DNA of 64,000 bases from Diphasiastrum complanatum (taxonomy: Eukaryota; Streptophyta; Lycopodiopsida; Lycopodiales; Lycopodiaceae): NCBI GenBank assembly GCA_029204225.1, contig CM055098.1, positions 47,307,939 to 47,371,938 of the forward strand, read 5' to 3'. Positions 1,740 through 63,850 of this stretch are shown here, one piece after another. Position 1 is the stretch's first letter; each line of letters starts with the position of its first letter. The position numbers and the translations under genes are program-made. The notes beneath the pieces were generated by a model. That model had not been told where the DNA came from, searched no databases, and saw only the letters and a list, made by a program, of their open reading frames with translations.

Positions 1740-2618
1740 CTCTTTCGTCGTCTGCGCTATCATTTCACTAGCTTCACCGCTTTACTCAGGATCCGTCACT
1801 TTCCTTGCTAGACCTCACAAACACGGGCTCTCTCTTTCCATTTTCACTATTTCACTCTTGCTCCATCTCTTTCTCGCTCTGTCTCCCTTTTCTCTCTTTC
1901 GCTCTTTCTCCACCTCTGTATCGGACCTCTGTCCCTGTAAGCTGACCTTATAATCTGTTGCTCTATTACCAATCCTTCTCTTCCCGTTCCTGCTTTTTTG
2001 CTTTCATTACAACCAACTCCCTCAGTCTTGTCTCTCTGCTACTTCTGTGTAAGTTTATAGTGATTTTCCTGCTTATAGCATACTTCGTATACTGATAACT
2101 GTGGACACCGATTTTCTTACTGCACTTCTGTGAGGTCAATTTCTTTGCAGCTATTGCAAGGCTAATTGTCTTGCTCTTGTTTTGCCGAGCACTCCATTTG
2201 TGAGGGCAATTTCTTATGCAGCTGTTGCAAGTTTGAGCTTCTGCTGCTGGAATCCAAACACAACACCAGTTTATAATTTGGTTTCATTACCTTGTGGATA
2301 TGTGAAGCTGACCCTGCTGCACAGGCGCAATCTACTCTTGCTCCCATAATATGTGAGCCCATGTTGCTGATCAATTCTAGCGATTTCCTCACCAAATTGA
2401 GAGTCGATCATCAGAAGCTGGATCAGACAACTTTTGTTAGAAAGATTTGTAGCATGGATTGTGTGCGAGGTCAGGAGGAGATTGATGATGCCAAAAATCT
2501 TACATAGATCCAGCCTCTTCAGCCTGACCAAGCAAATCTCCCACTAGAAGAGTTCTTGTAGCTTGAGAGAGAGGGAGAGAGAGAGAGAGAGAGTCCTTCG
2601 AAGAAAAGCATAGTTGCT
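1740..2618 (+). promoter_or_regulatory. Probable leader of the GRAS gene, with a candidate 5'-UTR intron
   Basis: A long pyrimidine-rich stretch (about 1850-2045), common in plant 5' leaders, is followed by a possible donor GTAAGT at 2049 and an acceptor TTTGCAG ending at 2150, which would give a 102-base leader intron. A phrase around TCAATTTCTTTGCAGCT at 2131-2160 is repeated imperfectly at 2201-2231. A (GA)n run at about 2569-2593 sits just before the ATG. No TATA box is convincing. The transcription start is not visible from sequence alone. Confidence 0.4.
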
Positions 2619-4895
2619 ATGGCGCATTTCTATGCAGATAATTCAAGCTTCATGTTCTATCACAGCACACCCTCCACTCGCTCAGACGCTTCTCTCATGG
2701 CTATAGCTCAGCAACTGCTTCAGAAACAACAGCACCATCAACACCAACAGCCACCGCCTGCGTCCGCTGATGGAAGTCAAGGCAGCAGTGGCATGACAGA
2801 AAATCCATGTCCAGTGACTCACTCTTGGAGAGGTGGGAGGACAAACTCCAGCCACGATCCATATTCTCTGCCCATCTCAAGATCCTGCTGCTCAGATGCT
2901 TTTGAGGATTTATCCTCCTCCAGCACCTCCTACTTCCTGGAGCCCACTTCTGTTCTGGATCTCTCTAGCCCATCTCTGGATTCCATGCACTCTCCCTTGA
3001 CTCTCAACGAGCAGCGATTCCAGGAAATCGAGCAATGCTTGCAGGAAGACGTGAGCCTGACAGAAAATCCCGTAATGAACAGATTTTCTACTGGCTTTGC
3101 CACCGAGCTTGCAACAGCTTCCAGCAGCAGACCTACTGACTGTGACGGAGATGTCCTTTACGAATCGGGAAAGATGGCTGACTTAAGAACAACAAGAGGA
3201 GCTACGTATTATCTGGAGGATCTGCAGGCTCTGCGATCTGGACAAAAGATTTTTTCTGATCAGAGCCAGCTGGGGATGGGCGATGGAAGCTCGGAGTGGA
3301 TGGATTGTCTGATGAATGATCTTCATGCAGAAGCGGTTGAAGTTGGAATAGCGTCATGTTTTGAGAGAAATCCCTGTGAGTCCACACACAGCTCGGAGCT
3401 TCCAGGCTATCCCTGCACGCCGGAGGAAAGTTGGAGGGAAGATTTTGCATTTGCTTGCTCTTCGGATCGGATTCCCCACACCTCCTGGACGCGAGACGCG
3501 TGCCCAGTTGATCTGCTCTCCGCATCATCGTCTGATCAGCTTCTCTCTTCTAGTAATTTCACCTCTCTAGCATTGCCACGGCAGCAGCCTCAGTATCCCT
3601 CGCATTTGCTAGCGCTGTCCAAACTTTGTCCACCTCAGGATCGCCCAGCAGGTCACGTTTTTGATAGAAGAGATGCGCTTTGTGTGTTGACAAGGGCAGG
3701 ATTGCTGGGAGTACATCTAGAGAGAAAAGGTGGCGATGAAGGTGTTAGATTGTTGCAACTTCTGATTGATTGTGTGGCAAGTATCGAAACAACCTCCATG
3801 GCAGGATCGTTAGCAACGCCAGGACGAGGAACATCGCATTGCACAAATGCCATGATGAAATTGAGAGAGCTTTCTTCTGCATACAGCGATCCGTTGCAAA
3901 GGGTAGCATCCCATTTCACAGACGCCATGGCTGCTCGCCTGGAAACCGATCCAGCAGCAGCAGCCCATGAACCCTCGAGGGATGAGAGCCTAGAGGATAT
4001 GGTGATGGCCTTTCGAGCGTTCAACGAAGCTTGTCCTTATATTAAATTTGCTCACCTCACAGCAAACCAAGCAATCCTGGAGGCGATGGAGACAGCAGAC
4101 AAGGTTCATATAATCGATTGTGGCATAGTTCAGGGCGTGCAATGGGCAGCTTTATTGCAAGCCTTCGCTACCCGGCCTGCGGGAGCCGTCCCTCCCAAGA
4201 TCAGAATCACCGGCATCGCGAGCCCCAAGCTCGGCACCGACCCATCCGCCGCCCTCGCTGCCACAGCAAAACGCCTCACCGAGTTCGCAAACCTCCTCAA
4301 CCTGCAATTTGAATTCTGTCCAGTTTCCACCAAGCTGGAGGATTTAGACCCATCCATGCTCAGATTAGACCACAACGAAGTCCTTGCAGTAAATTTTATG
4401 TTCGAGCTGCATCACCTTCTGGATGATTCTCTTCAACACCTCCGAAGAACTCTTAGGCTTGTGCAGCTCCTTAGCCCAGCAGTGATCACAGTGGCAGAAT
4501 TTGAGGCCAGCATAAATGCAGCTCCACTCCAGACCAGATTCCTCAACGCCTTCTGCTTCTATGCTGCGCTGTTTGATTCCCTGGATGAAACTATGGCCCG
4601 GGAGGATCCAGAGAGAGTCAAAGTCGAAAGACTATTCTTTGCAAAAGAGATTAAGAACATGATGGCTGCTGATGGGGCAGAAAGAAAAGAACGGCGAGAA
4701 AGTACCGATAATTGGAGGAGACTGATGGATAGAGCAGGCTTCAGGAGCGCACCGCTCAGCTACTATGCTATAAGTCAAGCTCGCCTGCTATTATGGCTGT
4801 ATTGCGAGAATTTTACACTGATGCAAGTGCCTGGATGCCTCTCCCTTTGCTGGCTGGAGCACCCCATTGTCACAGTCTCAGCCTGGCATTGCTGA
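2619..4895 (+). CDS. GRAS-family transcription regulator, SCARECROW-LIKE 4/7 type
   Basis: A single uninterrupted exon of 758 codons, as is common for GRAS genes. Residues 1-350 are a variable Ser-, Gln- and His-rich N-terminus typical of GRAS activation or partner-binding regions. The GRAS domain follows: first leucine-rich part about 350-450, VHIID motif about 496-500 (seen as VHIID then CGIVQGVQW), second leucine-rich part to about 600, PFYRE region about 635-695, and a SAW region ending in VTVSAWHC. FAHLTANQAILEA and GIVQGVQWAALLQA are characteristic of the SCL4/7 branch (family knowledge). GRAS proteins act in the nucleus as transcriptional co-regulators. The ATG lies directly after the GA-rich leader and no longer in-frame start is visible. 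SCL4/7 usually reads DFGIVQG, here DCGIVQG. The gene looks functional. The exact target pathway is not inferable. Confidence 0.93.
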   Translation: MAHFYADNSSFMFYHSTPSTRSDASLMAIAQQLLQKQQHHQHQQPPPASADGSQGSSGMTENPCPVTHSWRGGRTNSSHDPYSLPISRSCCSDAFEDLSSSSTSYFLEPTSVLDLSSPSLDSMHSPLTLNEQRFQEIEQCLQEDVSLTENPVMNRFSTGFATELATASSSRPTDCDGDVLYESGKMADLRTTRGATYYLEDLQALRSGQKIFSDQSQLGMGDGSSEWMDCLMNDLHAEAVEVGIASCFERNPCESTHSSELPGYPCTPEESWREDFAFACSSDRIPHTSWTRDACPVDLLSASSSDQLLSSSNFTSLALPRQQPQYPSHLLALSKLCPPQDRPAGHVFDRRDALCVLTRAGLLGVHLERKGGDEGVRLLQLLIDCVASIETTSMAGSLATPGRGTSHCTNAMMKLRELSSAYSDPLQRVASHFTDAMAARLETDPAAAAHEPSRDESLEDMVMAFRAFNEACPYIKFAHLTANQAILEAMETADKVHIIDCGIVQGVQWAALLQAFATRPAGAVPPKIRITGIASPKLGTDPSAALAATAKRLTEFANLLNLQFEFCPVSTKLEDLDPSMLRLDHNEVLAVNFMFELHHLLDDSLQHLRRTLRLVQLLSPAVITVAEFEASINAAPLQTRFLNAFCFYAALFDSLDETMAREDPERVKVERLFFAKEIKNMMAADGAERKERRESTDNWRRLMDRAGFRSAPLSYYAISQARLLLWLYCENFTLMQVPGCLSLCWLEHPIVTVSAWHC

Positions 4896-25863: not shown

Positions 25864-26574
25864 TGTCAAAAAATGTGAACTCCTGCAACTTTGTCATGAA
25901 GCGAAGTTAAACGACACGAAGCGAAGTGAAGGTCGAATGGCGAAGAATTCGCGAAAGTCAAACATATCTCAAAAATCCCAAGACATGAAACAAACTGAAG
26001 CTCGAAGGTCGAATGATTTGCGAAATTCAAACATACCTCCAGGACCAAAAGACATGACACGACACGAAACAAAAAGAAAATGAAAGAAAATCTTTCGTGC
26101 TGCCAGCTGGCAGCTCAATGGGTGTGGTGTCTTGTACTTCATGCTCAATTGAAATAGTTAGCAATAACAGAGAATAACTAACGAAAGGTTTAACGTTAAC
26201 TACTCTTGTAATTCTGTGTTTAGCTATTTTGTAAACTCCACAAAGTGGAGATATAAACGCAATTTTGGATCAACACAGAAAGAATTTTTCAAGAGAGAAA
26301 AAGAAACGAAAATATTCTGCATAAAACTGCGCCAATGAGCAAAACACAATGATAGAGCTAAGCGTTAGGCCGCCAATGAGTGAGACACTGATCATCTTGC
26401 TCTAAACACAAAAACTGATAATACAGTTGCTCTCTTTTGCCCATCTCTTTAATTTTCGTTGTCTTGATTGCTAGAATGATTTATGTTTAGTGATTTGTAG
26501 TCACATGCCTAGGATTCTGTAAGCTTCTGCATAAGAAAACCAAACGAAAACAATCTGTTTGCGAAACAAATCCA
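25864..26574 (+). repeat. Copia-3 3' LTR
   Basis: Begins TGTCAAAAAATGTG right after a purine tract and ends AACAAATCCA, as judged from where similarity with the inverted copy (31429-32160) stops. Contains a short internal repetition of GAAG.TCGAA.GGCGAA-type words near 25900-26000. Confidence 0.82.
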
Positions 26575-28063
<1,489 letters not shown>

Positions 28064-28900
28064 ATGGACAAAGATGATGTTCCATTGACTAGAGACATGG
28101 AAATATGTCCGGCATCACCAGGTAGTGATGACTCGAAAATCCGTCCAGCATCACCAGATAGTGATAAGGCCCTCGATTCTAATAAATTATTGCACACTCT
28201 GGGCAAAGCAATACTGGAACTTCACCAAAGTAATAAGCAACGTGATAACCAAATGCAAAACCTCTTTAACCAACTACAAGCTATCACCTCAACTAACTTG
28301 GGCTATCAACCAAAAGTATTTTCTGGTGATAAAAAATTCAAGCGCCCGGAAGTTGTTGAGGAGAGTGAATCGTTGGACGAGCTATTTTAGCTTGCACAAT
28401 GTCTAGAGAATAAGTAGATATCCTCGGTTCTATTGTTTCTGGAAGGCAAGGCCTCCTCTTGGTGGAGGGAACTTTCCACGAAACTGGTGACTGGGTTGAA
28501 TTCCTAACGGAATTCCTGTTGGAAGTAAATCTGATTTATGCGATGGTTAGATCTACACACGATGTGGTGTACTATAAAGAGGATCATCCACTTTTTAAGT
28601 TTCTACCAAAGCTTCAAACGGAACTAGTTACAAGAATGAATGCACTAAGGCTTACCCGACTAGTGCTCGAAATGGAAATGAAACTATCTAAAAATAAAAA
28701 AATAACCAATTCTTGTTAAGGCTTACCCAACTAGCAAGGCATCTAAACTAGGACCTAGATTAACACCCAAAAGGGGAGGAAATAAGTTGTGGCTAACTAA
28801 TAATCAACAAATAAATCATGCCACAAATAAACCAATGAGAAGGAAGCAAGAGGAGGCTCGAGCACCTTCCCTCAAGCTATGCACCTTCCCAAAGGGAACA
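28064..28900 (+). pseudogene. Decayed gypsy-type Gag
   Basis: MDKDDVPL opens a frame with an internal PASP..D repeat, then a LFLEGKASSWWREL block, the retrotransposon Gag signature (G.A..WW), preceded by stops at 28388 and 28415 and followed, one frame over, by DWVEFLTEFLLEVNLIY. Basic RRKQEEARAP near 28840 resembles the segment before a zinc knuckle, but no CCHC is visible. No pol follows on this strand. Only a Gag remnant remains, so which gypsy lineage it comes from is not clear. Confidence 0.6.
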
Positions 28901-29340
28901 TAAATAAAATAGAGAGATATTCTCAAAATAGAAGGCAAGATAACTTTATCTCAAAAGTGTTATTTACATGGCAAATACCTCTCCTTCTATGGCAAGGAGG
29001 GTTTTCCATAAGTATCCACTAAGCCTTGGTGGTGCAGGTAAGGCCATGCACTGTTGATTGTTCAGCGAGCCATACCTTGGTGCCGCATTGGGTGCCCCTT
29101 GATGATAAAGATAAGAGGTTTGATAGGGATTCCTCTTCTGTTGTATGATCCGGGGGTTAAATGGGAAAAATGTTGTCCGTGCGATGATGCATTGCACAGA
29201 TGGGAGTATCGGATCTAGATGCAAAGAAGACAACTGAGGGTAATCAGAGAAAACGACACGCTTGAAATCGATATCCAGCCAAGCAATCGTAAATTTGCGT
29301 GAAAATTTGAGCCGAAAAAGACCTATTCATAAAAAAAAAT

Positions 29341-29625
29341 TTGCACGTGTGGCGGAGTGGGAAGGAACACGTGTCGACTTGTGATTGGTCAAGATTAATG
29401 CGCCGTACCTAGAATGATTGATCTGACATCTGTCACATGCGAGAATGACACGCATCGAGGACGGATTGGTGCACATGTCCCAGCCCACGTGGCCTCATAA
29501 TTGGGTCATCATTGTTAGTATGGACATCCACGTGGACCAATCATCTGACGACACGTGTCTCGGCCATTTTTTCACATATGCAAAAATTTCGTTTATATAA
29601 GTCCTCGAAATTTTCATTTTTTTTG
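29341..29625 (+). promoter_or_regulatory. Promoter-like region of the H3-like gene
   Basis: Five ACGTG boxes (near 29345, 29368, 29486, 29528 and 29550, the fourth a perfect TCCACGTGGA palindrome), several CCAAT/ATTGG boxes (29384, 29464, 29537) and a TATATAA at 29594-29600 lie in the right order and spacing for a plant RNA polymerase II promoter. The expected start would be near 29625. A phrase like CCAATATCGCTYTCRAGCGC occurs twice in the leader (29647 and 29730). Activity is inference. Confidence 0.55.
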
Positions 29626-29909
29626 CAAAATTTTTGGTTTTCGATCCCAATATCGCTCTCAAGCGCGCTCTCTCACCGTTCAAGCTTCCGCCCTCTCACA
29701 GTGTGCTCGAGTCCTATGCCGCTGGTAGTCCAATATCGCTTTCGAGCGCACATCTCTTTTCTTAAAATAATCTGTTTAGATCTTGCGCTCGAAACCAATA
29801 TTCAGTTCTGGTATTGATCTCAAGCACCCTTTTGTTGCAATTTTTTTTGTTTTCATCCACTTTTTTTTTGTTCAATTTTTTTTTTGTTAATTTTCTTCTT
29901 CTGAGAATA

Positions 29910-30941
29910 ATGGCCATGACCAAATCCACTACCCGTGCCATAATCACTGTATAGCCATCCCATTCTCATGTTCCCCCTGGTACTGGCCGTAGGCGTGGCA
30001 GGAAGCAGGTCTGGCTGAAGGAGATCAAAAAATTCCAGAGATCAACTGAATTGTTGATCTCTAGAGCTCCTTTCGGCCGATCTGTACGGAATGTCACTCT
30101 GTCACTTGGGCTGAATGTTCGTTTTGAGCTGATAGCCATGCAGGTCTTACAAAGTGCTGCAGAAGATTTTCTGTCCCAGTTTTTTGAGGATACTTGTCTT
30201 TTCGCATTGCATGGTAAGCGTGTCACCATCAAGCCAAAGGATTTCATCATTCTCAAAAGGCTTTGGGACAGATATTTTGTTCTGCATGTTGATAATGCCA
30301 GCACCTCCAGAGACCTGCCTCTGGATAGAACCAACTTGTCGACTACCTTTAGGAGGAAGAGGAAGCAGCCTGTCCCCAAAAAGGCTGAATCTCGAAGGCC
30401 AGTTGCTTCCCTTCCTCGTCTTGTTATTCATCCAGCTCCTCAGCAGGTTTCATCACCAAAAGTGTCAATCACCTAAGAGGAGCTACATAAAATAACAGAG
30501 AAATCTGTAAATATTGTTTCCACTTCTGTTTCTGCTCCTATACATAATCTTTTTGTTAGAGTTCCATACGATCCAGCCCAACTTTATTTTGATTTTGACC
30601 ATTATAATCAATACGAGGCCTACCTAGCTAATAAAATTGATCTTCTCGGCAACTTTTTTGATTTTTTTCTTCCAGATACACGTACAAGCTTTAGATTAGG
30701 TCCCAAATTTTGTGCCAAATTGAAAGATAAAACCTCAAAAATTTCAAATGTAATAGTAGAAGCCGAAGTTTCTTTTTTGCTAAATAGTATTAGTTTTGAT
30801 TCCCATGGTACAATTTTTGCTGTTAGTCCATTTTTCATGGGAGCAATAAAGGCGAAAGAAGCCAATTTTGAAAAGGTTGTCTATTTTATCGAATGCAATC
30901 CTGTGGCAAAAATTTATCTGATTCCATATGAGAATAGGTAA
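29910..30941 (+). pseudogene. Histone H3-derived domain joined to an unknown C-terminal domain
   Basis: One frame of 343 codons from the ATG at 29910, with stops only at codon 15 (TAG, 29952) and codon 189 (TAA, 30474). The start MAMTKSTTRA parallels MARTKQTARK of H3. PPGT then LKEIKKFQRSTELLI, RSVRNV, VRFE, QVLQSAAEDFLSQFFED and LHGKRVTIKPKDF follow the alpha-N to alpha-3 helices of H3. About eight residues (GRRRGRKQ) are inserted before alpha-N, and loop 1 has canonical H3 length, not the longer CENH3 form. After codon ~118 comes a basic tail (FRRKRKQPVPKK), then about 150 residues unlike any histone (VPYDPAQLYFDFDHYNQYEAY, GNFFDFFLPD, IYLIPYENR). The frame ends at a consensus donor AG|GTAAGG (30936-30943), so an exon may follow. 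Surroundings are retroelements. It may be a captured or diverged host histone. Confidence 0.72.
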
Positions 30942-31428
30942 GGATTGCTCTTTTGTTTTTGTTGCTTTAATTTTGATTGTTGCATGATTTTGTTTTAATA
31001 AGTAAGGAATTCTTTTATAAATATGGATTTATCGATATTCGTATTTTGGTTGTTGCAATCGGCATTGGAGCCTAAACATTCTGTCTGTAAAGATAAATAA
31101 AGAGGGAGTATCAAATTTTCTATGTGTGCAATCTTCAATCTTCATGAGTAGATCTTCATTGATGGACAAAATGATGATTACCATTGCACGCTCATCCTTT
31201 TTTATCCACTCAGCTCTCCTCGGGTCTCTCTCTGGAGGCTGCACCTCTGAGAGTTTGGTCACCAATCAGATGCCTTCACTATCAGAAGTGTTTTGATTTT
31301 AAATTTCCACACCCTGTACTTTCTGCCATCAAGACTGATTGCTATTCTTGTCTGGATCGTTGTAGCCATATTATGTTGCCTAGAGAATTAGTGTTTAAAT
31401 ATCAGTAGTGATAACCTCATAGAGTGAG
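30942..31428. other. Unassigned stretch downstream of the H3-like frame
   Basis: T-rich at first (possible intron), then a mixed region with no recognisable exon. Ends at the inverted LTR copy. A 3' exon of the H3-like gene, if any survives, should be sought here. Confidence 0.3.
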
Positions 31429-32160
31429 TGGATTTGTTTTATGAACAGATTGTTTTTGTTTGGTTTTCTTATGTGGAAGCTTACAGGATCCTAGGCACAC
31501 GACTACAGATCACAGAACATAAATCATTCTAGCAATCAAGATAATGAAAATAAAAGAGATGGACAAGAGAGAACAACTGTATTGTCAGTTTTTGTGTTTA
31601 GAACGAGATGATCAGTGTCTCGCTCGTTGACAGCCTGACACTTAGCTCTATCGTTGTGTTCAGCTCATTGGTAGACTTTTATTCACAGCTATTTTCATTT
31701 CTTTTTCTCTCTTAAAAAATTCTTTTTGTGTTGATCCAAAATTACGTTTATATCTCCATTTTGTGGAGTTTATAAGATAGCTAAACATAGAATTACAAGA
31801 GTAGTTAACGTTAGTCAACTAGTTAGTTATTCTCTGTTATTGCTAAGTATTTTAGTTGAGCGTGAAGTACAAGACACCACGTCCGTTGAGCTGCTAGCTG
31901 GCAGTGCGAAATATTTTCCTTTGTTTTCTTTTTTTTTTTTGTGTCATGTCATGTCTTTTGGTCCTAGAGATATGTTTTAATTTTGCGAATCATTCGACCT
32001 TCGAGCTTCCCTTCATTTTGTGTCTTAGAGTTTTTGAGGTACGTTTGACTTTCACGAATTGTTCGCTATTCGACCTTCACTTTGCTTTGTGTCACTTCGA
32101 CCTTTGCTTTGCTTCGTGTCGCTTTGCGACAAAGTTGCAGGAGTTCACATTTTTTAATAG
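31429..32160 (-). repeat. Inverted copy of the Copia-3 LTR
   Basis: Reverse complement resembles 25864-26574 along its length (shared words include GATCCAAAATT, GTTAACGTTA, GACATGAC and AGCTCAACGG-like segments), with substitutions and small indels. It is adjacent to GCTTTGATACCA (32161-32172), which looks like a copia primer site, although a primer site should not border this end of the LTR. Confidence 0.78.
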
Positions 32161-36291: not shown

Positions 36292-36905
36292 GTGTTAGAA
36301 TTTAGCAATTTCCATAAGGTTTTTGATGAATATTAGACATCTATGTGGATTCACACGTGTGAGGACCTGTCCACACGTGTGAAATGACACTTGTAATATT
36401 CAGATCTATTTTGATTAGCTTTCATTTGAGTCTAATATGACATCTCCTAAATTATAAGAGTTAGGTCCTAGATTGTAGGAATCTAGAAGGTCAACACAAA
36501 CCACCAATGGATAATGTGGCAAACTTGATAGATCTTATCCAAAGTGGATATGGATAAGTACAATGAGCTGTCCTACACGTGCTGGATGCAGCTTAGAGAG
36601 ATATTATGATGAATTTGTACTTGATACATGATGGATCCATTATTGAGCTAATGATGAGAAATCTTGGTTTGTGAAGCTATCATTGTGTTTTGACTCTCTT
36701 AAGCACTTTCTTTGTGGATGAATGCTTTGTATAATAAGTAAATTATTTCTCTGTTATCAGACCGTATAGTAGCTATACTTCACACATGTGAAGCCGTGGA
36801 TCATCTTTTTTTATTGTTCTTGCTTGGAAACACAAAGATTGTCAAGTAGAAGCTAGATTTGGAAGCTAGTCTTGATATAGATCAAGATCCTAAGTTACCA
36901 ATCAC
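36292..36905 (+). repeat. Copia-6 3' LTR
   Basis: Three palindromic boxes: TTCACACGTGTGAG at 36350, CCACACGTGTGAAA at 36371 and TTCACACATGTGAA at 36779. The right boundary is uncertain. Confidence 0.65.
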
Positions 36906-43140: not shown

Positions 43141-43793
43141 TGTGAAAAATTGTCAACTAGTAGTATTTTCCTAACTTGAGATTTTGTAGGCCTATGGCCA
43201 AATAAAAGTTAGAGATAGGTTCATACATGTATGTAGAGGCCCAAAGTATGTGTACACTACTTTTGAGGTCACATTAATTAGAGGAGGTCGAGTGTGGAGC
43301 TCTTCTATTGGCTCATAATTTGGTGCATTCCTATTTGACCAAATTTCTAGGTAGATGGGTGAAGCCTATTGGACCCCAATTTTAGCCTATCATAAGACAA
43401 GTGGCCAAGAGGCACTATGGCTGCTATAAATAGCCATCTCCACGAGTATGTACACATCTCATTTTCATTCTATTGAATGAATGTTATGCTCTTTGAAGAT
43501 CCATCTTCTTCTCTCTCACTTTTTTGTTCATATCTTGCATTCTAGCCACTAGAATTGTGATTTCTTTGTTGCTATGGCTTCACACGTGTGAAATGCAGGT
43601 TGTAGGCTCTGAAGTACGGACAGGGACAGCAAGTTTCTGTTTGTGGAAGCTTATGATCAGATCTTGATGTTTAGTTGATGTTTAGTATGCTTAACATCAC
43701 AATTTCTATCATTTTTTCAATCTAGATGTGCATAACTTCCATGGCCAAGATCTTTATGAAACTTTAGCATCTTTTGGATCTGAGTTTTTCACA
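43141..43793 (+). repeat. Copia-5 5' LTR
   Basis: 653 bases, TG...CA. TATAAATA at 43425-43432 would place transcription start near 43455-43465. A perfect TTCACACGTGTGAA lies at 43579-43592. Confidence 0.97.
43425..43432 (+). promoter_or_regulatory. Copia-5 LTR TATA box
   Basis: TATAAATA in the middle of the LTR. The same motif is in the 3' LTR. Confidence 0.75.
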
Positions 43794-43805
43794 TGGTATC
43801 AGAGC
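43794..43805 (+). other. Copia-5 primer-binding site
   Basis: TGGTATCAGAGC, the standard plant copia site complementary to the initiator-Met tRNA 3' end, immediately after the LTR. Confidence 0.95.
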
Positions 43806-44402
43806 ATTAGGCGGCCAAATGTGCAGGTTTTGCCAGATTTAGAAGAGATTTGTGGGCGAGTTTGCTTTTGTAGCATTCCAATCAAGTTTCTAGCTAAAAA
43901 TCTTGTTGATTTATGTGTAGAAATTGGATCTTTGTGATCAAAACATCATTTGTATGCATTTCAATTGAAGTAGGGCGAATTCCCTCTGTACTTATCAGAA
44001 TAAGGAGACAAAATTTGTTTTGGAAAGAGGGAGATGCAAGATCCAACAAGATCCTATTAGTTTTCCATTCTAGCATATAGTTTTTTGATTCAATTTCTTG
44101 CTTCTTCATGTCAAAAACTTCAAAATTGATGTAACCCTCTGATTTTCAGTTTGCTGAATGATTCAAGAGTGTATTTCAATCTTAGGAGTGAGGGAAAAGC
44201 AAGTATATTGAGGTTTGGTCTTGGTTTGATCAAGAAATCATAAAACTAGTGGCTAAAATTGAGGAAAAAGTGAGGAAAAGAGAGAAAAAGTAAGGTTTTA
44301 GGTTCCAAATCTTTGTGATTTCTTCTTGTGTTTCATTTGTTGATTCAAGAGAGTGCTTAGTGCATTGGAACAGGTCAAAGATCAGAGATCAATCATTGCA
44401 AC

Positions 44403-47400
44403 ATGGCTACAAATGGAGGCTACATGTTGGAAAGCAATGATAGGCTTACCTCCCTCAACTATTCTACTTGGAAAGTAAGGATGGAGTCTTTGCTTGAGAT
44501 GAATGAGTTGATGGATATTGTTGTAGGTGTGGAGGAGAGACCTTTGGCACCTCAAGAACAATTGAGGTATGACAAGAGGGCAAAGAAAGCCCTTCACATG
44601 ATCAAGATGAATGTGACAAATGAGCTTATCAAAGAGGTTGGTAAGTGCACATCATCTAGTGAAGCTTGGGAAGCCTTGAAGAAGGTTTATGAATCCAAGT
44701 CTACTTCTAGAGTGTTGACTTTAAGAAGGCAAATCTTTTCTTGTATGCAAAAGAAGAGTGAGAGTGGACATGCTTTTGTTTTGAGAGTTAAAGCATTGAA
44801 TGATGAGTTAGCATGCATTAATGATGGCATAAATAATGAGGAGCTTGTTCAAGTGATTCTCAATGGCTTGTTGGATGATCATGCTAATCTTGTTCAAAGT
44901 TATGCTATCCAAAAATGTTTACCAAGTGTTGGAGACTTGCAAGAGGTCTTGTTGGCTGAAGAATTCAGGTTGCAAGCAAGAGTGGGAGCATCTTCTACAT
45001 CTCAAGGAGGAGAAGAGGAGGCAATGTTCTCTAAAGGCAAGTTCAAGGGCAAAGGTAAAAGCAATTGGTCTAAAGGGCAAGACCAAGGTGAGCACTCTAC
45101 TTTTGGCAAAAAGAAGGATAGATCTAAGCTAAAATGTTTCTATTGTGGAGTCAAAGGGCATTTTGCTAGCGATTGTTTTAAGAAAAAGAGGGATCAAGGG
45201 GAAAAGCAAACCAATCTAACTATTGATGAGGGTGGGGATGAGCTTCTTTCAAATGATGCTTTTGTTATGTCATCTTGCTTGTTGGCTAATCATGGAGACA
45301 TTGATCCTTGGTGGATTGATAGTGGAGCCACTTCTCATATGACATATCATAAAGAGTATTTTTCATCTTTAATGGCATTTGATGGTGATAGGAAGGTAAT
45401 CTATACCGCAAATGATGGTGAGTGTGCAATCAAGGGGATTGGCACAATTCCTATTTCACTTTCTACAAATAGGAATATAGAATTGAAAGATGTTTTGCTC
45501 ATTCCATCCATTACCAAGAACTTACTTAGTGTAAGCCAAATGCTTGACAAAGGATTCAAAGTTGAGTTTGATGGTGATGCTTGCTTGATCAAAAAGGGGT
45601 GTAGTATCATTGCAAAAGGGAAAAGGCAAGGGAAATTGTTCAAGCTTGATGCATGTGTTGTTGCTAACCAAGTTGGATGCATGGCAAATGAACAAATGTC
45701 AATTCAAGAGGTATGGCATAAAAGGATGGGACATCTCAACTACAAGGCCTTGGAGGAAATAGCCAAAAAGGAGGTAGTAAGGGGACTTCCCAAGTCTCTT
45801 ACTTGCTTGAATCATGTTTGTGAAGAATGTGCTTTGTCTAAATCACATAGATTGCCATATACTAGATCTATATCTAGATCTAAGATGCCTTTTTCTCTCT
45901 TGCATTCGGATATTCATGGTGTTACTACAATTAGCAATGGAGGTGCTAAGATGTATGTAACTTTCATTGATGATTTTAGTAGATTTTGTTGGGTTTATCT
46001 ACTAAAGAGCAAGGATGAGGTGTTTGATGTGTTTGTCAAGTTCAAAGTTGCTATTGAGACTCAATTTACAACCAAAATCAAATGCTTGAGGAGCGACAAT
46101 GGTGGTGAATACATTTCTAACAAATTCAAAGCCTTTTGCGATGAGCATGGGATCAAGAGGGAGTACACATGTCCAAGAACACCACAACAAAATGGAGTGG
46201 CCGAGAGGAAGAATAGAACCTTGTGTGAGAGTGCAAAGGCAATGAGATTGAATGCTAATCTTCCTAAACCTTTTTGGAGTGATGCTTTGTTGTGTGCAAA
46301 TTTCCTATGCAATAGATGGCCAAGTGTTGTATTGGAAGGAAAAACCCCTTTTGAAGCTTTGTTTGGTATGAAGCCTAATGTCAAGTTTCTAAGAACTTTT
46401 GGATGCATTTGCTACTTCAACATTACTCTTGATGATAGAACTAAGGAGGATCCATCTTCAAGAAAGGGCATTTTTGTTGGTTATAGTGAAGTAAGCAAAG
46501 CATATAGGATTTATGTTTCTTCAATCAAGAAAGTGTTCACAAGTAGGGATGTCATTTTTGATGAAAGTAACATTCCAAAAGTTGTTTCAAGTGATGATGG
46601 TGTTGTTGCAACTAATGTGCTTGATGACAATGGAGTTGATGACACATTGGATGTGGATGTTGAAGAAGCCTCTTCAAGTCAAATTCCAAGGAGAACTCCA
46701 AGGCATAAAGTGAAACCCTCAAGGCTCACTTATGATGGCAAAGGTAAGCAAGTGGTGGATGGATCCAACTATGCTTTCCTAACTTCTTTTGATGTACCTT
46801 CATGTGTAGATGAAGCAAGGCAAAAAGAGGAATGGATCCAAGCAATGGATCTTGAGTTTGAAGCACTTATGAAGAACAACACATGGAGATTGGTGGAGCT
46901 TCCAAAGGGCAAAAGTGCAATTGGATGCAAATGGATCTTCAAGGTAAAGACAAATCAAGATGGATCTATCAACAAGTTGAAGGCAAGGTTGGTGGCTAAA
47001 GGTTATGCTCAAGAGCATGGCATTGACTATGAGGAAACCTTTGCACCCGTGGCAAAGATGGTGAGCATAAGAGTAATCATTTCCCTTGCAACTCTTTATG
47101 GATGGGATCTTTGGCAATTAGACATTTCTAATGCTTTCTTGAATGGTGATCTTGAAGAGGAAGTCTACATGGAGCAACCCGAGAGCTATGTTTCTCATAG
47201 CAAGCCTAATCATGTGTGTTTTCTACAAAAAAGTTTGTATGGTCTTAAGCAAGCACCAAGGAGTTGGTATGCTAGGCTTAACTCTTTTCTACTTTCTCAA
47301 AACTTCACTATGAGTGAGTATGATCATTCACTTTACTTTAGAATTAGTGCTAATGATGTTACAATCCTTCTAATTTATGTGGATGACATTATTTTAAGTG

Positions 47401-48353
47401 GAGGGAACAAGGAAGATATAGAAGATATCAAGAAAGCACTAAAAAAGGAATTTGAAGTGCATGATCTTGGTCTTTTGAGCTATATCTTAGGAATAGAAGT
47501 AATTAGAACTTCTCAAATCACTTTTATTTCACAAGAGAAGTATGCTATTTCTATTCTCAATAGATTTCATATGGTAGATGCAAATCCTATTGATACACCT
47601 ATGGAATCACATGTAAAGCTAACTATAAGAGGTAATGAAAGATCCTTCGAGGACATTACTCTCTATAGGAAGCTAATAGGTTCTCTTATATATCTAACCA
47701 TCACAAGACCTGATTTATCTTATTGTGTTGGTAGATTAAGCCAATTCATGCAAGATCCTAGCATAGAACATTGGAAACTAGGAAAGAGGATCTTGAGATA
47801 CATCTCGGGAACAAAAGATTTTGGCATTGTTTATAGAGGCTCATCACCTAACTTATTTGGTTTTTCAGATTCAGATTTTGCAGGAGACCTTATGGATAGA
47901 AAATCCATAAATGCACATGCTATTTTCATAGGTGATGGAGCTATCTCATGGATGTCGAAGAAACAAGCAACTATATCACTTTCTTCTAGTGAGGCCGAGT
48001 ACAAAGCTTTGACATCATGCACAAAGGAGATGGTGTGGATCAAGAGGATGATTATGGAGCTTCATTTGCTGGATTTTTCAGAGAGTCCAATCATCTTTTG
48101 TGACAACCTTTCAGCCCAAAGTCTAGCAAGCAATCCGGTTTTCCATGCAAGGAGCAAACATATCGAGGTGGCTTACCATTTTGTGAGAGAACAAGTGTTG
48201 GCAAAAGAGATCAAGCTTGAACATGTCCCATCAAAGGAATGTGTGGCTGATATCTTTACCAAAGCATTGGGAAAGGACTTATTTTTCAAGCATAGAACAA
48301 GTCTTGGTGTACTTTCTAAATCTATGCTAAAACTAGTTGAAGAGGGAGTGTGA
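44403..48353 (+). CDS. Copia-5 Gag-Pol polyprotein
   Basis: Single frame of 1316 codons. Gag 1-240 (LESNDRLTSLNYSTWKVRM), CCHC knuckle near 244 (CFYCGVKGHFASDC), aspartic protease near 301 (DPWWIDSGATSHM), HHCC pre-integrase module near 438 (WHKRMGHLNY) and 470 (CEECALSKSH), integrase with D near 522 (FIDDFSRF), D near 565 (RSDNGGEY) and E near 600 (NGVAERKNRT), reverse transcriptase with YVDD at about 992-995, and RNase H near 1155-1300 (SDSDFAGD, SSSEAEYKAL, RSKHIEVAYHFVRE). All catalytic residues are present. The leader is about 600 bases. The stop TGA (48351-48353) lies inside the 3' LTR. The product should assemble into virus-like particles and process itself. No separate Gag stop exists, so the Gag:Pol ratio must be set in some other way. 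Confidence 0.97.
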   Translation: MATNGGYMLESNDRLTSLNYSTWKVRMESLLEMNELMDIVVGVEERPLAPQEQLRYDKRAKKALHMIKMNVTNELIKEVGKCTSSSEAWEALKKVYESKSTSRVLTLRRQIFSCMQKKSESGHAFVLRVKALNDELACINDGINNEELVQVILNGLLDDHANLVQSYAIQKCLPSVGDLQEVLLAEEFRLQARVGASSTSQGGEEEAMFSKGKFKGKGKSNWSKGQDQGEHSTFGKKKDRSKLKCFYCGVKGHFASDCFKKKRDQGEKQTNLTIDEGGDELLSNDAFVMSSCLLANHGDIDPWWIDSGATSHMTYHKEYFSSLMAFDGDRKVIYTANDGECAIKGIGTIPISLSTNRNIELKDVLLIPSITKNLLSVSQMLDKGFKVEFDGDACLIKKGCSIIAKGKRQGKLFKLDACVVANQVGCMANEQMSIQEVWHKRMGHLNYKALEEIAKKEVVRGLPKSLTCLNHVCEECALSKSHRLPYTRSISRSKMPFSLLHSDIHGVTTISNGGAKMYVTFIDDFSRFCWVYLLKSKDEVFDVFVKFKVAIETQFTTKIKCLRSDNGGEYISNKFKAFCDEHGIKREYTCPRTPQQNGVAERKNRTLCESAKAMRLNANLPKPFWSDALLCANFLCNRWPSVVLEGKTPFEALFGMKPNVKFLRTFGCICYFNITLDDRTKEDPSSRKGIFVGYSEVSKAYRIYVSSIKKVFTSRDVIFDESNIPKVVSSDDGVVATNVLDDNGVDDTLDVDVEEASSSQIPRRTPRHKVKPSRLTYDGKGKQVVDGSNYAFLTSFDVPSCVDEARQKEEWIQAMDLEFEALMKNNTWRLVELPKGKSAIGCKWIFKVKTNQDGSINKLKARLVAKGYAQEHGIDYEETFAPVAKMVSIRVIISLATLYGWDLWQLDISNAFLNGDLEEEVYMEQPESYVSHSKPNHVCFLQKSLYGLKQAPRSWYARLNSFLLSQNFTMSEYDHSLYFRISANDVTILLIYVDDIILSGGNKEDIEDIKKALKKEFEVHDLGLLSYILGIEVIRTSQITFISQEKYAISILNRFHMVDANPIDTPMESHVKLTIRGNERSFEDITLYRKLIGSLIYLTITRPDLSYCVGRLSQFMQDPSIEHWKLGKRILRYISGTKDFGIVYRGSSPNLFGFSDSDFAGDLMDRKSINAHAIFIGDGAISWMSKKQATISLSSSEAEYKALTSCTKEMVWIKRMIMELHLLDFSESPIIFCDNLSAQSLASNPVFHARSKHIEVAYHFVREQVLAKEIKLEHVPSKECVADIFTKALGKDLFFKHRTSLGVLSKSMLKLVEEGV
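48339..48348 (+). other. Copia-5 polypurine tract
   Basis: GAAGAGGGAG directly before the 3' LTR. It also encodes the last residues of the polyprotein. Confidence 0.9.
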
Positions 48354-49001
48354 AAAATTGTCAACTAGTAGTATTTTCCTAACTTGAGATTTTGTAGGCC
48401 TATGGCCAAATAAAAGTTAGAGATAGGTTCATACATGTATGTAGAGGCCCAAAGTATGTGTACACTACTTTTGAGGTCACATTAATTAGAGGAGGTCGAG
48501 TGTGGAGCTCTTCTATTGGCTCATAATTTGGTGCATTCCTATTTGACCAAATTTCTAGGTAGATGGGTGAAGCCTATTGGACCCCAATTTTAGCCTATCA
48601 TAAGACAAGTGGCCAAGAGGCACTATGGCTGCTATAAATAGCCATCTCCACGAGTATGTACACATCTCATTTTCATTCTATTGAATGAATGTTATGCTCT
48701 TTGAAGATCCATCTTCTTCTCTCTCACTTTTTTGTTCATATCTTGCATTCTAGCCACTAGAATTGTGATTTCTTTGTTGCTATGGCTTCACACGTGTGAA
48801 ATGCAGGTTGTAGGCTCTGAAGTACGGACAGGGACAGCAAGTTTCTGTTTGTGGAAGCTTATGATCAGATCTTGATGTTTAGTTGATGTTTAGTATGCTT
48901 AACATCACAATTTCTATCATTTTTTCAATCTAGATGTGCATAACTTCCATGGCCAAGATCTTTATGAAACTTTAGCATCTTTTGGATCTGAGTTTTTCAC
49001 A
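48349..49001 (+). repeat. Copia-5 3' LTR
   Basis: 653 bases, same as the 5' LTR as far as I can read. Followed by CTATC (49002-49006). Confidence 0.97.
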
Positions 49002-63001: not shown

Positions 63002-63850
63002 TGTGAAAAAAATAAAAAGGACCAAGAGTGGATCCTAATTTGATCCTCAAGAGGGATTGGTTGTCAGATTACTTGATCTATCAATCTACTTGAGATAAAG
63101 ATCAATCTAGATCAATTCTAGACACAAAATCCTAACAAGAACAATCATTAATTGAAGGTAGGTGTACTTTCTGGTTTCACACGTGTGAAACACTGTCTGA
63201 GTAAAGACTCCAACCTGAAAATCAAGTACACATTGATAGAACCTCAAAACAATCAAAACAAATGTAGACAAATGGAGAGAATCACTCAAAATTGCTTCCA
63301 AACCCAAGATTGGTGTCTCACATTGATTATGGCCAAATAAGCCTCTATATATACACTTTTGGAGCTCGAGGTACTGATCATGCATCAGATCTCACACGTG
63401 TGAGAATGCCTTGTGACCATCATGCAATTTGACACTTGGATCAAAACTTTCCATTTTGGACATTTTTGGTCTATTTTCCTACTATACGGAGATCTTCATG
63501 GAAATCTTCTAGAAGCAAAAACTCGCCTACTTCAGCTATTTCCACACGTGTGAGTTGTCCTCTACACAATGTGACACCTATTCAAAATATTTGGCTCATG
63601 CAATCATTAGATTGGTGCCATGTGTCATATCTCTAGAAAACTAGTTTTTGGCCATTTTACCCACTAGAACTTGAATTAAATCATATGTACAACATATATG
63701 ATTATGGTACATGAAAAGTACACTAGTTTCACACGTGGGAACAGGCTCCACACATGTGTGTGTATCCTATATACAAGATTTTTGGCCTCTACCAAGCTTA
63801 TTTTTTGCATTTTTCACAGTTGGGAACGTTTCTCATTCAAAATAGACAAC
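63002..63850 (-). repeat. Copia-7 5' LTR
   Basis: Starts TGTGAAAAAAAT on the plus strand. Contains palindromic boxes at 63176, 63391, 63541, 63728 and about 63751. The outer end is not determined. From about 63885 GCCGAAGG words appear that also occur near 53 kb, so another element may begin there. Confidence 0.65.

Follow-up and report, generated by a model that had tools for sequence, protein, structure and literature searches.

At positions 29910-30941 on the plus strand of the window (the whole stretch of 64,000 nucleotides of Diphasiastrum complanatum DNA that was analysed), translation gave a reading frame of 343 codons and a terminal stop, with in-frame ATGs at codons 1, 3, 77 and 310. 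Two stops interrupt the frame, and both these and the coordinates agree with an earlier note on this DNA. The features of the locus and its flanks are as follows.

25868-26574, plus strand: copia-type LTR of the left flank, with a pol-like end and a purine tract before it (by eye)
29344-29557, plus strand: five CACGTG (G-box) sites upstream, from a word count
29910-29951, plus strand: H3-type N-terminus MAMTKSTTRAIITV, the top ATG match to MARTKQTARK
29952-29954, plus strand: in-frame TAG, codon 15 of the translated frame
29985-30263, plus strand: histone H3-like fold, alpha-N to alpha-3 (Pfam, PDB phmmer, AF2)
30264-30473, plus strand: basic C-terminal tail, matching O6H91_10G071800 and containing RRKRKQPVPKK (by eye NLS-like)
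30474-30476, plus strand: in-frame TAA, codon 189, with a shift of base composition nearby
30477-30938, plus strand: second coding-like stretch of 154 codons, with a coding signal
30935-30943, plus strand: splice-donor-like TAG/GTAAGG over the terminal TAA (7/9, weak)
30939-30941, plus strand: terminal TAA, end of the 343-codon frame
31429-32155, minus strand: LTR of the same copia family, inverted, on the right flank, 84% identical to the left-flank LTR

The first ten residues, MAMTKSTTRA, are identical to MARTKQTARK at 6/10 positions, the top value among the 2,944 ATGs of the window (both strands), where three other ATG-led decapeptides reach 5/10; the H3-like N-terminus read in the earlier note is thereby borne out. 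Compared with H3 by eye, MAMTKSTTRAIITV retains A1, T3, K4, T6 and R8 and lacks R2 and K9. Because this is the best ATG match, the frame very likely starts at the original H3 gene start, and codon 15 was very likely once coding. Ahead of the T45 equivalent, 32 codons were counted by eye, versus 45 in H3. The copy at this locus is a pseudogene: its TAG at codon 15 would leave a peptide of 14 residues and the ATG that follows in frame, at codon 77, lies within the fold, so that the present copy can no longer act as an H3.

Codons 16-188 (173 residues) matched Pfam Histone (PF00125) over residues 11-97 with E 3.5e-23 and 82.6 bits (cut-off 26.4 bits), and a phmmer search of the PDB, which returned 176 distinct sequences at E 0.001, gave a plant-type H3.1 as the best match (residues 18-103, E 9.3e-20; best 60 of 176 examined). 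From Pfam and the best 60 of 176 PDB sequences, the region is a core histone fold with H3 as its nearest class, in agreement with the domain proposed before. Arabidopsis H3.1 is identical at 42/86 fold positions (49%), and identity amounts to 42-49% for each aligned H3, H3.3, CENH3/CENP-A core and database protein, the rows of the alignment being H3.1, H3.3, seven database proteins and three cores of CENH3/CENP-A. AF2 modelling of the first half (8-row alignment) led to helices at 17-36, 39-51, 55-87 and 94-115, in the order known from H3, the last one being longer and the tail unfolded; confidence in the model is middling (mean pLDDT 58.2, pTM 0.31). Between PGT and alpha-N, an insertion of eight residues is found in one possible alignment; the insertion before alpha-N claimed earlier fits that alignment, and others are possible. 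Among 33 H3 positions chosen by known role, 18 are kept, including R69, R72, R83, F84, H113, K115, R116, T118, K122 and D123, and 15 are altered, including R49, R52, R63, L65 and C110. In a tree of 13 rows, the branch measures 2.1-2.3 changes per column and has no supported partner, 6/10 inner branches being open. Because of the altered positions and this very long branch, the nucleosome competence of the predicted fold is not assured. When an H3 core drifted neutrally to equal identity, 192/2,000 simulations stayed stop-free over 86 codons, and changes as mild as those observed arose in 4.5% of neutral simulations; as the stretch was selected for openness, this is only modest support for a coding past of the fold, and drift simulations cannot date the decay.

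Core H3 stops a few residues beyond alpha-3. The ordinary H3 ending was not found here, since 70 further codons follow the end of the PDB match before the inner TAA. Fifty residues of this tail (30267-30416) are 76% identical to a Diphasiastrum complanatum hypothetical protein, O6H91_10G071800 (P0006), in a match that spans 29% of the query and was one of six, the remaining five being H3-like proteins with about 48% identity. What O6H91_10G071800 shares with the window gene is the 50-residue tail, whereas the predicted protein of 99 aa contains no histone fold according to Pfam, and its alignment over the full length is weaker (61%). Its terminal letters NHPAP resemble the IHPAP of the window by eye, and the alignment leaves them unpaired. 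The tail thus recurs elsewhere, in O6H91_10G071800, and as this protein shares the tail alone, the window gene is the single known sequence that combines fold and tail. By this one tail match, the window would belong in or near Lycopodiaceae.

The second stretch contains no stop in frame versus 11 and 19 in the other plus-strand frames, and 0/4,000 simulated sequences were stop-free. Its period-3 power of 4.86, versus 0.74 in shuffles, was reached by 0/1,000 shuffles and by 1/2,000 simulated stop-free sequences. Equivalent tests of the first half were weaker (11/4,000 and 17/2,000); both halves had been picked for these tests because they are open, and the figures are uncorrected for that choice. 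Because the sole ATG of the second stretch is frame codon 310, near its end, it needs an external start, which either the histone frame or an exon joined by splicing would have to supply. No relative was found at E 1 in the protein set (18 candidates, lengths about 85-270 aa) and none in NCBIfam, Pfam gave no domain and no match at E 10, and AF2 modelling of the second half alone was uninformative (pLDDT 40.4). Several candidates were tried and rejected: a CpcJ phycobilisome-linker likeness of the second half (E 0.012) was deemed chance given the Pfam result; a viral origin found no support in viral_contigs scans, in which 9 pattern matches for the second half and 20 for the first led to 0 confirmed, nor did the second half have a relative among phages, all of these scans being weak as they reach close relatives only; and an intron that spans 30446 to about 30557 and deletes the inner TAA would disrupt the frame (by eye).

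There is a break in base composition near 30484 (30419-30502), where GC falls from 0.47 to 0.32 with a lnL gain of 12.4, compared with maxima of 10.4 in 300 permutations and 3.0 in 8 control stretches. Third-position GC is 79/173 before and 35/154 after the inner TAA (p 1.6e-5), and as the difference at fourfold-degenerate sites is not significant (34/88 versus 15/59, p 0.11), the shift is partly one of amino-acid content. Because of this break, the histone and the second stretch as one protein are unproven; of the non-histone half described in the earlier note, the coding-like character and the shared frame stand, and the single protein is a possibility. The donor-like site over the terminal TAA may indicate a true end of the coding region other than 30941, which is weak evidence because an equally scoring site (7/9) lies within the fold at 30214.

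A true fusion, in which an H3 variant had an extra domain of some 150 residues added to it in a macroH2A-like layout and the copy died recently, would account for a frame that continues unshifted through the inner stop (a 1 in 3 chance) and runs over 343 codons without frameshift, and for a second half with a coding signal and no ATG before codon 310. It does not account well for the composition break near the inner TAA, for O6H91_10G071800 terminating within its tail, or for a search with the full-length frame (2,070 candidates, about 189-600 aa) in which both matches at E 10 covered the histone part only, and we regard it as possible but rather doubtful. MacroH2A consists of a histone fold, a basic linker and a further domain. 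This layout of macroH2A may be shared in part by the window gene, with its fold, basic linker and possible further domain, whereas macroH2A is an H2A, not an H3, and Pfam detected no domain in the second stretch. A clubmoss family of H3 variants in which one protein unites the histone fold, a basic tail and a novel domain with a fold of its own, as the H3 counterpart of macroH2A with a freshly broken member at this locus, is a tentative proposal that we would not expect to hold. The AT-rich 154 codons are either a fused ancestral domain or, somewhat more likely, an exon or a piece of coding sequence with a different origin. Outside the window, on a 23-kb contig, the C-terminus of P0008 (532 aa) has an H3 fold, and its long N-terminal portion has no Pfam match above cut-off; judged from this predicted protein, it is an H3 fusion of a different kind.

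CENH3 has a longer loop 1 than H3. The window gene could be a CENH3 paralogue or its pseudogene, and 4 of the 24 fold columns that separate two H3s from two plant CENH3s are indeed CENH3-like (A, T, L, D), with KDF and RL common to Arabidopsis CENH3 and absent from rice CENH3. However, 6/24 columns are H3-like, including both loop-1 columns, and 14/24 are neither, in a count that uses provisional CENH3 sequences, for which the best 60 of 176 PDB matches offered no Arabidopsis CENH3 entry as a reference, and omits six columns beyond the H3 row ends. Loop 1 has H3 length, as the earlier note had claimed, and is unextended, two residues shorter than in the two plant CENH3s; the tree supports no grouping with CENH3s (13 rows, long branch). 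The N-tail is short, while PMC4357034, the source used here for plant H3.1, H3.3, H3-like and CENH3 criteria, names a long N-terminal extension for CENH3. A centromeric H3 is therefore improbable. The same source gives A31 F41 S87 A90 as the signature of plant H3.1 and T31 Y41 H87 L90 together with introns as that of H3.3. The window gene has I87 and Q90, R or V at 41 depending on the gap (by eye), an unalignable position 31 and a fold in one open frame. As neither signature is present, the gene fits the plant class 'H3-like' in the terms of PMC4357034, a loose and heterogeneous class with which it shares the H3 fold, a degenerate N-terminus and deviation at the H3.1/H3.3-defining positions 31/41/87/90. 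It differs in its identity of only 49% to H3.1 in the fold and in its long C-terminal tail, neither of which is mentioned in the available text of PMC4357034.

The gene sits in a 4.85-kb interval between two inverted LTRs of one copia family. No direct-orientation LTR pair enclosing it, as expected for LTR cargo, was found: direct pairs spanning the gene occur only at a distance (about 13.8-17.8 kb paired with 39.0-42.4 kb, 65-71%) and represent pol-type similarity between other copia elements rather than element ends. A TIR transposon was rejected, as the inverted arms are LTRs. Within 30901-31430 there is no run of at least 8 A, and exact repeats of 10-20 bases flanking the frame within 29001-31430 are limited to one 10-mer; the poly-A end and target-site repeats of a processed retrocopy are thus absent, and an old copy could have shed both. 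That a mobile element captured and spread the histone, the alternative raised in the earlier note, is very improbable, as the LTR-dense neighbourhood and the inverted 700-base arms on both sides of the gene would fit it, but these arms are LTRs by their flanks and opposite in orientation, no direct LTR pair surrounds the gene, the frame holds no element domain and a poly-A run is missing.

Elsewhere in the window, 43141-49001 holds a seemingly intact copia element with a 1,330-codon frame (gag, zinc knuckle, integrase and RT domains), whose LTRs of 653 bases are 100% identical and point to a very recent insertion; it is nested in an older pair, 38443-38980/49021-49569 (93.6%). At 28059-28720, a CT repeat and an acceptor-like site precede a broken gag-like frame (LEGKASSWW; by eye), with no convincing Pfam match. 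Apart from the histone, the ORFs scanned gave a single match to a host gene, the open 777-codon GRAS-family frame at 2562-4892 (Pfam E 5.7e-113).

Of the CACGTG sites, 23 occur in the window versus 2.8 expected, and 5/23 fall within 214 bases upstream of the gene, followed by TATATAAG at 29594 (by eye); more clusters lie at 63180-63737 and 36354-36581. As the window is rich in CACGTG and several sites fall in LTRs of other elements, the upstream cluster is weak evidence for a putative promoter of the gene's own. Taken as a whole, the surroundings favour a gene with its own promoter rather than a processed or element-borne copy, which is unproven.

The locus is probably a decayed copy of a clubmoss (Lycopodiaceae) host H3-like gene, with LTR elements around it and not as its carriers, and the diverged and now broken host H3 variant that the earlier note offered as an alternative gains support from a relative of the tail in Diphasiastrum complanatum. 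The intact ancestor of this H3-like gene probably encoded a protein of about 190 residues, whose diverged H3 fold lay between an N-terminal tail that was short and degenerate and a C-terminal tail that was basic. Such a protein may have taken the place of H3 in a subset of nucleosomes, where its retained fold would pair with H4, and would have presented an N-tail without K9 and an extra C-terminal arm extending out of the core. The LTR elements would have inserted around the gene without carrying it along.

Few proteins are as conserved as H3, for which long C-terminal extensions are scarcely known. Among the titles and abstract openings covered, no lycophyte H3 with a long C-terminal tail was found, and the available text of PMC11687628 describes lycophyte centromeres and chromosome evolution as significantly understudied. 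A single dead copy poses the question of a tailed H3 family without answering it. Should the fusion with the second half be genuine, the product would represent a new type of chromatin protein. A family of tailed, fast-evolving H3-like proteins in lycophytes, if it exists, would offer a natural test of the amount of change that H3 can tolerate while remaining in use.
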